Source: Halosimplex salinum (GTDB lineage: Archaea > Halobacteriota > Halobacteria > Halobacteriales > Haloarculaceae). From it: a DNA stretch of 64,000 nt. Position numbers and translations under genes: made by a program. This document shows positions 39,081 through 42,690 of the stretch, in pieces. Where the stretch lies: contig NZ_QWGG01000003.1 of the NCBI RefSeq assembly GCF_003730195.1, forward strand, positions 248,001 to 312,000, read 5' to 3'. The notes under the pieces were generated by a model. It saw nothing but the letters and a program-made list of their open reading frames with translations. It did no database searches and was not told the DNA's origin. Numbering within the stretch: the first letter of the stretch is position 1; the number at the start of each line of letters is the position of its first letter.

Positions 39081-41174
39081 TCAGCTGTTGACGGCTTCGA
39101 GGCGGTCGCTGACGACGAGGCGCCCGCGGGCGGTGAGGCCCGTCCCGGCGAGGTCGGTGGTGGTAACCATCCCCTTCTCGGCGAGCGACGCGAGGTTCTC
39201 CCGCAGTTCCTCGTCGTCGCGTTTGAACGCGGCCGAGAGGTCGACGCCCTCGCCGATGGTGTAGAGGGCGACGAGCACCTCCTTCTCGCGGTCGGGGATC
39301 GAGAGCGCCCGCGCCGCTTCGAGACGCTCGCGGTAGTCGCGCCGGACGAACCGCTCGAACAGCGCCAGCGTCCGCGTCGACTCGCTGCCGACGACGGCCG
39401 TGACCGCCTCGCCGTCGTCGAACCGCTGGACCGCGAGCGCGGGCCGGCGGTCGCCGTCCACGGTCTGGCGAGTCCGCTCGACGTGGAGCACGTCGTCCAG
39501 GTCGATCGACAGCAGGGTCGTGTCAGAGCCGACCGGCGTGAACCGCACCCGGCCGCGGTCGACGTAGCACATCGCCGGCGTCGCCGATTCGTCGGTGACG
39601 CGCCCGCCGACCCGGGCGGGGTCCGTGACCGTCGTCCGGGAGACGTGGAGGGCGTTGCGGAACAGCGCGATCCAGAAGTCCCACTTGCGCCCCTCGTCGA
39701 GCGCGACGATGGCCGCCTCCTGACTCCCCGCCCGGCGGACGACGATCCCGAGCGCCGAGTCGAAGGGGACGTCCGTCGCCGTCTCCGCGTCGGGGACCAC
39801 GTCGACCACGCGGTCGAGCGCCAGCAGGTCGAACTCGACGGTCTCGTCGTCGAGCGACCCGTCGGTCGCCGGCGAGACCAGGAGGACCTCGTTCTGCCCG
39901 AGGACGACCTGCCCCTCGACGGCCTGCCCGTCCGCGACGGCCGGCGAGACGAAGCGGGTTCCGACCCGGGCGACCATCGGCTGGGTGATCGCCTCCTCGA
40001 CCGTCTGCGGCTGGGTCGCCAGCGGCTCGTCCGCCTCCAGCCGGCCGTCGCCCGGCCCGGCGGTGGTGTGCGCGTTCGGGTCGGGTTCGGCGGGCGGCCC
40101 CTCACCGGGGTCGACGGGCGCCCCCCACTCGCGGTCCATCCCCGGCGCGACGGCCGAATCGCTGTCGACTCCGGCGCTCTCGGGGCGGACCGACGCGTCC
40201 TTCCTGGTGACCCAGTCCCGGAGCGCGGCCATGTCGTCCACGTCCGCGCCGGCGGAGCGCGAGAACTGGCCGCCCGCCGAATCGGCCTGCTCGGCCATCG
40301 TGTGCTCGTCGGGGTCGTAGTCGAACCCGTCGGGGACGCGGGCGGACCGCGGGTTTCGGACGCGCCGCCCGGCCTCGTTCTGCGCCCGCTCGAAGCGCGA
40401 GTCGGGGCCGTAGTCGGCGGCCGTGAACGGCTCCCGGGAGAACGGCGCCGGGTCACACACCACCGGGAACCGGCGGTCCGGGTTCGCCGGCGGCACGTCG
40501 GGGCCGAGCGCGTCCCGGTCGAAGGCGGCGTACGTGGCCGCGCTCGTCCGCTGGCCGGCGTAGCGGACGAACGCCTCCGCGGTCTCGCGGTCGGGCAGCC
40601 CCAGCGCGTGCCGGATCGAGGTCGCGTCGAACCCGACGTCGGCGAGGAAGCGCCCGCCGGTCGCGCGGAGGACGTGCGGCGTCAGCCCGTCCGGGTCGAT
40701 CCCTTCGGCGGCCGCCGCCGTCTCGGTCACGACCTCGCGGACGGTGGCGGCGTCGCCGTCGAAGTGGTCGAGGTAGTCGAAGAACGTGGCCAGCACCGCG
40801 GTGATCCGCTCGGACCAGCCGAAGGCGACCGTCCGGGCGCCCGCGTCCGTGCCCGGGGACCACTGCTCGGTGCGAACGATCTCGCCGAGGGGACGCTCGT
40901 CGCCCGCCGCCTGGCGCGCTCGCGCGTTCGCCCAGCACGAGCGGCAGGCGCACGGGTCCAGCGCCGGGACGCGGATCTCACCGCGCCCCCAGTCGATCCA
41001 CCCCTCGTGGCAGTGGACGATCTCGTCGGGCCGCAGGCCGAGGCGTCCGGCCAGCAGGGTGACGTAACACCGGCTCAGCCGCCGCTGGACGCTGTCGGCC
41101 GCGAGCGCACCCCGGTACAGCGAGTAGAACGCGCCCGGACCGAGCGTCCGATCGAGCGGCGGCCAGTCGGACAT
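39081..41174 (-). CDS. Tyrosine-recombinase-like domain fused to a CheF-like taxis domain
   Basis: 697 residues, one uninterrupted frame. Residues about 25-220 look like the haloarchaeal XerC/D-type integrase core: LAGRLGLRPDEIVH (Arg48), EIRVPALDPCACRSC (Cys75, 77, 80) and HVLRATGG (His167, Arg170). The usual Y-V-R-x-S-G reads AFVRYAG, so the nucleophile position is Phe202. Residues 221-400 are a disordered-looking acidic linker. Residues 401-697 resemble CheF, the adaptor linking CheY to the archaellum: FRNALHVSR-TTVTDPARVGGRV, then KEVLVALYTIGEGVDLS and GRLVVSDRLEAVNS. Loss of cleavage activity and a DNA- or taxis-adaptor role are inference. Confidence 0.78.
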   Translation of the reverse strand: MSDWPPLDRTLGPGAFYSLYRGALAADSVQRRLSRCYVTLLAGRLGLRPDEIVHCHEGWIDWGRGEIRVPALDPCACRSCWANARARQAAGDERPLGEIVRTEQWSPGTDAGARTVAFGWSERITAVLATFFDYLDHFDGDAATVREVVTETAAAAEGIDPDGLTPHVLRATGGRFLADVGFDATSIRHALGLPDRETAEAFVRYAGQRTSAATYAAFDRDALGPDVPPANPDRRFPVVCDPAPFSREPFTAADYGPDSRFERAQNEAGRRVRNPRSARVPDGFDYDPDEHTMAEQADSAGGQFSRSAGADVDDMAALRDWVTRKDASVRPESAGVDSDSAVAPGMDREWGAPVDPGEGPPAEPDPNAHTTAGPGDGRLEADEPLATQPQTVEEAITQPMVARVGTRFVSPAVADGQAVEGQVVLGQNEVLLVSPATDGSLDDETVEFDLLALDRVVDVVPDAETATDVPFDSALGIVVRRAGSQEAAIVALDEGRKWDFWIALFRNALHVSRTTVTDPARVGGRVTDESATPAMCYVDRGRVRFTPVGSDTTLLSIDLDDVLHVERTRQTVDGDRRPALAVQRFDDGEAVTAVVGSESTRTLALFERFVRRDYRERLEAARALSIPDREKEVLVALYTIGEGVDLSAAFKRDDEELRENLASLAEKGMVTTTDLAGTGLTARGRLVVSDRLEAVNS

Positions 41175-41280: not shown

Positions 41281-42690
41281 TCAGTCGCCGAACGGGCCGC
41301 CACCGCCGCCCATGCCACCCATCCCGCCCATGCCGCCACCGCCGCCACCGCCCTGCATCTGCTTCATCATGCGCTCCATGTCGGCGTCGCCCATGCCCTG
41401 GAACTGGTCCAGCATCTGGCGCATCGCGTTGTACTGTTCGAGCAGTTCGCGGATGCGCTCCTCGGGCTGACCCGACCCGCGGGCGATGCGCTCGATGCGG
41501 CTCTTGCCGACGGTACGGGGGTTCTCGAGTTCCTCGTGGGTCATCGAGTCCATGACGATCTCGAAGTCCTTGAGCCGCTCCTGGGTCACGTCCATCGCGT
41601 CGTCGGGGAGCTGGTCCATGAGCCCGCCGCCCATGCCGGGGATCATGTCCATCACCTGGTCGAGCGGACCCATCTTGTTCATCGTCTCCATCTGCTTTCG
41701 CATGTCGACGAGGGTGAACTTCCCCTCCATCATGTCCTCGGGGTCCCAGTCGTCCTCCTCCTCGCCCGTCTCCTCCATCGCCCGCTCGACGCGCTCGGTC
41801 AGCTGTTTGAGGTCGCCCATCCCGAGCAGGCGGGAGATGAAGCCCGAGGGCTCGAAGCGCTCGATGTCCTGCACCGTCTCCCCGGTCCCGAGGAAGGCGA
41901 TGGAGGAGCCGGTCTCGTTGACCGCGGCGAGGGCGCCCCCACCTTTCGCCGTCCCGTCGAGCTTGGTGATGACGACGCCGTCGACGCCGATGGAGTCCTC
42001 GAACTCCTGGGCCTGGTCCTTGGCGCTCTGGCCCATCGCCGCGTCGAGGACGAGCAGGTCGCGGTCGGGCTGGACCTCGTCCTCGATGTCCTCGATCTGG
42101 TCGATGAGCTCCTCGTTGAGGCCGTCGCGGCCGGCCGTGTCGACGATCCGGATGTCGGCGTCCTCGGTCGCGTCGAGCCCCGCTCGAGCGATCTCGACGG
42201 GGTCGTCGGCGTCGGCGTCGCCGTAGAAGTCCACCTCGGCGCGCTCGGCCATCTCCTTGGACTGGTCGTAGGCGCCCGGGCGGTCCGTGTCCGTCTGGAT
42301 GATAGCCGGGCGGAGCCCCTTCTTCGAGAACCACCACGCCATCTTGGCGGCGGTGGTGGTCTTCCCCGACCCGTAGAGGCCGGCGAGCATGATCGTCTGC
42401 GGTTCGAGCGGGAGGTCGGTCGACTCGCCGACGAGGCCGACGAGTTCGTCGTAGACGACCCGCAGCACCCAGTCGTGGGCGGAGGTGCCCGCCGGGGGCT
42501 CCTCCTCCAGGGCGCGGGTCTTGATGCTGTCCGACAGCTCCATCACCAGGTCGACGTCGACGTCGGCCTGCAGGAGCGACCGCTGGATGTCCTTGACGAC
42601 CTCCTCGACGTCCTCCTCGGAGATGCGGGACTGTCCCCGGAGGTCGTTGAGCGTGCTCCGGAGCGACGTTCCCAGATCGTCGAGTACCAT
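41281..42690 (-). CDS. ffh: Signal recognition particle 54 kDa protein
   Basis: 469 residues. It binds signal sequences and SRP RNA and targets proteins to the membrane with FtsY. N domain (1-95), then GTPase: Walker [14 protein letters not shown] (104-116), [35 protein letters not shown]. The methionine-rich M domain (about 300-440) ends in a Gly/Met tail, [12 protein letters not shown], typical of haloarchaea. It is monocistronic with a TATA-like CTTTAAC on the minus strand about 27 nt before ATG 42690. SRP RNA is not seen in the window. Confidence 0.97.

Follow-up and report, generated by a model that had tools for sequence, protein, structure and literature searches.

A probable CheF-type taxis adaptor with an N-terminal domain derived from a tyrosine recombinase in Halosimplex salinum

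Introduction

In archaea, CheF is known to connect chemotaxis to the archaellum. In Halosimplex salinum (H. salinum) a CheF protein is encoded in one frame with a domain that resembles a tyrosine recombinase, which raises the question of what a taxis adaptor does with such a domain. The gene was analysed within a window of 64,000 nucleotides, which is located on contig C22 of the 5.07 Mb host genome. It is a single open frame of 697 codons at positions 39081-41174; a first-pass annotation, made from the letters alone, had given this frame without a strand, and the analysis confirmed it and placed it on the minus strand. The favoured reading, held with slightly better than even confidence, is that the product is a CheF-type taxis adaptor in which a cell-domesticated, catalytically dead tyrosine-recombinase domain at the N-terminus serves as a docking module.

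Domain architecture of the fusion protein

Single-sequence searches gave a weak integrase signal for the N-terminal part, with PF00589 scoring 14.6 bits, below its cut-off of 27.1, and PHROG 216 matching at 2.3e-4. Alignment by hhalign of the N-terminal domains of the fusions with short haloarchaeal recombinases of the active type gave a match of 100% with an E of 5e-41 over 212 columns. A mixed profile reached XerA at 2.9e-7, and a profile built from the fusions only found no match among PDB sequences. In the AlphaFold model the recombinase domain has a mean predicted local distance difference test (pLDDT) of 90.4, and the 50 PDB fold matches listed are without exception tyrosine recombinases, with a template modelling score (TM-score) of about 0.6 to XerA and others. 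The integrase-like character first proposed for residues 1-230 therefore falls below the Pfam cut-off on its own and is strong by profiles and predicted fold. Residues 8-215 are predicted to fold as the catalytic domain of a tyrosine recombinase of the haloviral phiCh1-Int1 type. The nearest proteins in public phage records are the HCTV-5 integrase, phiH Int1, and phiCh1 Int1; in phiH and phiCh1 the int1 gene is part of the tail-fibre segment that inverts, and it is assumed to act in this switch (PMC6210493; record annotation).

Residues 400-697 are a CheF protein with two PH-like domains and a predicted CheY-binding tail. PF04283 (CheF-arch) matches residues 452-615 with 76.6 bits at 3e-21 (cut-off 25), a profile of the C-terminal part matches two CheF structures, the crystal structure 7ovp at 7e-21 and 7od9, a tail structure, at 1e-10, and the top fold match for the full-length model is again 7ovp. 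The predicted secondary structure, the pLDDT, and the 7ovp match agree with a pair of PH-like domains and a helical/beta tail behind them, so that both the profile and the structure prediction uphold the CheF-like nature first noticed in the last 300 residues. The features of the gene, all on the minus strand, are as follows.

39081..41174, minus: whole gene, apparently dead tyrosine-recombinase domain and CheF, 697 residues (open frame; orthologues in H. aquaticum and other species)
40530..41153, minus: residues 8-215, predicted phiCh1-Int1-type tyrosine-recombinase catalytic domain without the N-terminal core-binding domain (AlphaFold, fold matches, hhalign, substitution rates)
41031..41033, minus: codon of R48, first catalytic Arg, kept in the H. 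salinum copy (alignment)
41013-41015 (H54) and 40935..40952 (C75-x-C77-x-x-C80), minus: probable structural zinc site (invariant in 28 of 28 aligned sequences)
40851..40853, minus: codon of G108, catalytic Lys position (Lys in 15 of 15 non-fused relatives and 0 of 13 fusions)
40665..40676, minus: H167-V-L-R170, HxxR motif, kept in the H. salinum copy, His replaced by Gln in H. aquaticum (alignments)
40596..40598, minus: codon of L193, catalytic His/Trp position (Trp in 15 of 15 non-fused relatives and 0 of 13 fusions)
40569..40571, minus: codon of F202, nucleophile (Tyr) position (alignments)
40314..40463, minus: residues 238-287, post-domain segment DPxPFxREPF...NPRP...DYDP (conserved among fusions; common to the hydrophobic-tail relatives)
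39990..40304, minus: residues 291-395, acidic low-complexity linker, predicted to be disordered (pLDDT about 20-40 over most of it)
39651..39980, minus: residues 399-508, first CheF PH-like domain (pLDDT mostly 80-91; 7ovp profile match; 7ovp and PH-domain fold match)
39381..39647, minus: residues 510-598, second CheF PH-like domain, motif DPARVGGRVTD (within the PF04283 match to 452-615)
39084..39377, minus: residues 600-697, CheF C-terminal tail ending in LEAVNS, which in known CheF serves CheY-P binding and dimerisation (7ovp and 7od9 profile matches)

The length of the linker varies widely among the fusions. The H. salinum genome contains four further CheF genes. In a tree of 62 CheF domains, drawn without OE2404R itself, all 13 fusion copies group together within a clade of stand-alone proteins that end in LEDVN, apart from the main CheF clade, and the C-terminus of the fusion resembles that of these LEDVN-type proteins. 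In several loci, e.g. L024 and L025, an LEDVN-type CheF adjoins a main-type CheF in convergent orientation. OE2402F and OE2404R form an adjacent haloarchaeal CheF pair (PMC2666748), and since the neighbouring pairs fit this arrangement, the LEDVN clade is probably the OE2404R type. The CheF half of the fusion would then belong to the second, non-essential haloarchaeal CheF clade. OE2404R binds CheY, CheD, CheC2, FlaCE, and FlaD, and its deletion has a weak effect only (PMC2666748). The clade of the fusion CheF halves also holds one stand-alone CheF-like gene on a long branch, which adjoins the fusion in genome G117 (L040:10224-11183, minus strand) and whose tail weakly matches HVO_A0261_N.

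Loss of the active site and retention of the fold

At the six catalytic positions the H. salinum copy has R48, G108, H167, R170, L193, and F202. The first-pass annotation had named R48, H167-x-x-R170, and the AFVRYAG stretch with F202, all of which are present, and had placed Phe at the nucleophile position; a phmmer alignment pairs this Phe with the nucleophile Tyr of XerD, and in each active haloarchaeal relative the aligned residue is Tyr. The decay was followed through an alignment of 28 sequences, comprising 13 fusions and 15 non-fused relatives, of which nine are short and six have a hydrophobic tail. The short relatives, including phiCh1 Int1 and HCTV-5, keep 54 of 54 catalytic residues and the hydrophobic-tail relatives keep 35 of 36. 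Among the 13 fusions the first catalytic Arg (ArgI) is kept in seven, the Lys in none, the His of HxxR in one, the Arg of HxxR in ten, the His/Trp in none, and the Tyr in three at most, as the alignment is unsure for two of these three. This pattern indicates that catalysis has been lost in the fusion clade and that the domain is derived from a recombinase rather than being one.

His54, Cys75, Cys77, and Cys80 are invariant in all 28 sequences, active and dead, which indicates that the fold is maintained. Across the haloarchaeal recombinases of the phiCh1-Int1 type, active and dead, the His and the Cys-x-Cys-x-x-Cys motif, with an insert in some, are invariant, and the set is probably a structural zinc site for the whole family. 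The fold is kept, and probably the zinc site with it, while the active site decays differently in different genera.

Distribution and origin

The search for the same architecture in other haloarchaea, proposed with the first reading, found the fusion in 15 species of seven genera and two GTDB families. The orthologue from H. aquaticum covers residues 1-696 with 76% identity in the best segment. In its own family the fusion occurs in 9 of 146 genomes (G000, G416, G117, G268, G430, G282, G138, G399, and G002), where the CheF half is deduced for G399, G416, and G430 from open frames of 626, 722, and 650 codons and G416 may be H. aquaticum; in the other family it occurs in G149, G284, G346, G124, G174, and G068. 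The joining of two genes by a sequencing error was rejected, as uninterrupted single-frame orthologues are present in at least 11 other genomes. In G068 the halves of the fusion lie in two overlapping frames (L043:8507-10635), which may reflect a sequencing error, decay, or a programmed frameshift.

The N-terminal domains of the fusions form a single clade (97/96) whose neighbour is the hydrophobic-tail group, and the EPF...NPR...DYDP segment that follows the domain is common to both. The tree points to a single origin of the recombinase half, which was apparently fused once in haloarchaea. Carriage as cargo of a mobile element was rejected, since phage, plasmid, and viral-contig collections hold the recombinase half only and no fusion. 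The active sites of the sister group (L019, L020, L021, L026, L027, and L028) are intact or nearly so; its members also carry the EPF...NPR segment and have a hydrophobic C-terminus, by which they are possibly anchored in the membrane.

Function of the recombinase-derived domain

In the favoured docking adaptor, the CheF tail would dimerise and take up phosphorylated CheY (CheY-P) as in known CheF proteins. There the tail serves both for dimerisation and for CheY-P binding, with the terminal carboxylate extending to the phosphorylation site, and the PH-like domains are probable protein platforms (PMC9126983). Because the additional domain is fused at the N-terminus, the C-terminus of CheF stays free, as the contact with CheY-P needs. 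By analogy, the two PH-like domains may still touch the C-ring of the archaellum or some other partner, and the recombinase-derived domain on its long flexible linker would be the docking module that holds CheF at a second partner.

The composition of the domain bears on whether that partner is protein or DNA. Basic residues make up 9.4-12.4% of the domain in the fusions and 11.7-15.2% in the relatives, with a Mann-Whitney P of 6e-5 that is indicative only, as the groups consist of related sequences. The active group has 13 basic columns, of which six (14, 36, 81, 108, 148, and 212) lack a basic residue in every fusion. The lower basic content and the lost basic positions argue for docking to protein over binding to DNA. 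A protein is thus the first choice of partner, with about an even chance of being right, and DNA, somewhat less likely, is the second.

If the dead domain still binds DNA, the protein would be a DNA-bound factor that responds to CheY-P and couples taxis signals to gene expression or to the position of the nucleoid. In favour of this, the fold is kept along with several conserved Arg (R44, R64, R114, and R123), and TnsF shows that a dead recombinase can serve in DNA targeting (PMC10293859). However, ArgI has been lost in 6 of the 13 fusions and the Lys in all 13, more conserved basic positions are gone, the domain has a lower share of basic residues than its relatives and no core-binding domain, and no conserved target gene adjoins the fusion in the loci read; the DNA-bound factor is regarded as somewhat unlikely. 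The specific version in which the domain recognises particular DNA and the taxis pathway directly controls genes or chromosome position is doubtful to a greater degree. The first-pass annotation had proposed a binding module linking taxis to chromosome or gene control. Its binding module is supported, as CheF is fused to a dead recombinase fold that is probably such a module; the link to chromosome or gene control is no more than a possibility, as the lost basic residues and the less basic domain speak against DNA binding and no conserved genomic partner points to gene control.

Several observations weigh against the docking adaptor or take support from it. At five of the six positions that lost basic residues (14, 36, 81, 148, and 212) the hydrophobic-tail group, which is catalytically complete, has no basic residue either, so the loss by itself is compatible with DNA binding. 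The conserved C-terminal VN end is lost in three fusions (G268, G117, and G002), and binding to CheY may therefore not be general. The fusion lies outside che/arl clusters in the loci read, except for the CheF-like neighbour in G117; a location in the che region is typical for CheF and not defining, as the published set includes two H. marismortui paralogues outside such a region (PMC2666748). Other CheF genes and ArlD/E are present in 12 of 12 fusion genomes tested, and the background for ArlD/E is 305 of 391 (78%) of the class, which is little below this, so that co-occurrence with the archaellum was set aside as too weak to be evidence.

The recombinase part might also be a relic, dead weight on one more CheF paralogue of which only the CheF half works. 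The drift of the catalytic residues, the frame break that splits the gene in G068, and the patchy distribution in the family would suit this account. The substitution rates run against it. The ratio of nonsynonymous to synonymous rates (dN/dS) between H. salinum and H. aquaticum is lowest for residues 1-220 (0.22), against 0.36 for CheF and 0.39 for the linker, and the N-terminal domain is the most conserved region among the fusions, with 43% mean pairwise identity; the post-domain segment, measured over 232-290, reaches 42%. Both parts of the protein are under purifying selection, which is strongest on the dead domain, and the invariant His and three Cys are kept across genera, which makes the relic improbable. 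The H. salinum copy offers R48, H167, R170, and a Tyr three residues past F202 for an unusual recombinase or topoisomerase activity that uses a different nucleophile. Such an activity is very improbable, since this Y205 is confined to two Halosimplex-type copies (a displaced but retained catalytic Tyr was rejected as a conserved feature), H. aquaticum has Gln in place of H167, and the Lys and His/Trp are gone in all 13 fusions.

Genomic context and related loci

The genomic context of the fusion is common within a genus and different between genera, and it is chromosomal in the loci read. The H. salinum neighbours are SRP54, a metallo-beta-lactamase, and an S49 peptidase, which is not a che region.

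41281..42690, minus: upstream neighbour SRP54 (ffh), 106 bases from the fusion gene (Pfam)

SRP54 adjoins the fusion in H. aquaticum as well; an operon with SRP54 as shared partner was rejected because this neighbour occurs only in the two Halosimplex-type copies. In other genera the neighbours, identified by sequence inspection only, are proteasome subunits, an RqcH-like gene, or ribosomal proteins. The earlier statement that the window has no other che or arl genes holds for CheF and ArlD/E, as no second CheF and no ArlD/E is present on the whole H. salinum contig; the window was not scanned for other che genes. A scan for promoters of the bacterial type found nothing, and such a scan does not fit archaea.

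A conserved island (L047:655-9460, L048:7703-15213, L049:686-8811, and L050:345-9274) includes a tyrosine recombinase that is catalytically complete and has a hydrophobic stretch at its C-terminus. The island encodes a DUF7344 regulator, a small unknown protein, sometimes an HNH protein, unknown proteins of 295 and about 414 residues, and a protein of 1158-1215 residues with UvrD-helicase and PD-(D/E)XK parts, followed by the recombinase. Only the helicase part is matched by PADLOC (GajB models), and the island may be a new defence or DNA-processing island.

Relation to known systems and significance

The fusion is a new domain architecture that joins two known families, and it is old and conserved. 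No description of a CheF-recombinase or CheF-integrase architecture was found in the titles and abstracts of the open literature, with subscription papers and preprints outside the search. Known CheF proteins (7ovp, 7od9, and in particular the second haloarchaeal type, OE2404R) share with the fusion the PH-like domains and the tail that binds CheY in known CheF; the C-terminus of the fusion resembles that of stand-alone proteins ending in LEDVN. The fusion adds the N-terminal recombinase domain and the long linker, and in the loci read its gene lies outside any che region. Recombinases of the phiCh1 Int1 type, known from tail-fibre inversion in phiCh1 and phiH, are homologous across the whole domain, share the G-R/K-LG and PC..C..C signature, and are likewise short and without a core-binding domain. 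In contrast to the fusion, which has lost most of the six catalytic residues, Int1 keeps them all, and it has neither the CheF part nor the EPF..NPR segment. The inactivated tyrosine recombinase TnsF of Tn6022 is, by its description, another dead recombinase fold put to new use (PMC10293859); unlike the fusion it is a transposon target selector with zinc fingers and not a signalling protein.

A conserved CheF with a second binding module suggests that taxis signals have another address in the cell. The fusion further offers a clear example of a recombinase of viral type that archaea have apparently domesticated as a module without enzymatic function. The related steps are all present in living genomes, as the complete free enzyme, the complete enzyme with the extra segment and a hydrophobic tail, and the dead fusion with CheF. 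As a natural fusion, it makes the role of the second haloarchaeal CheF testable.
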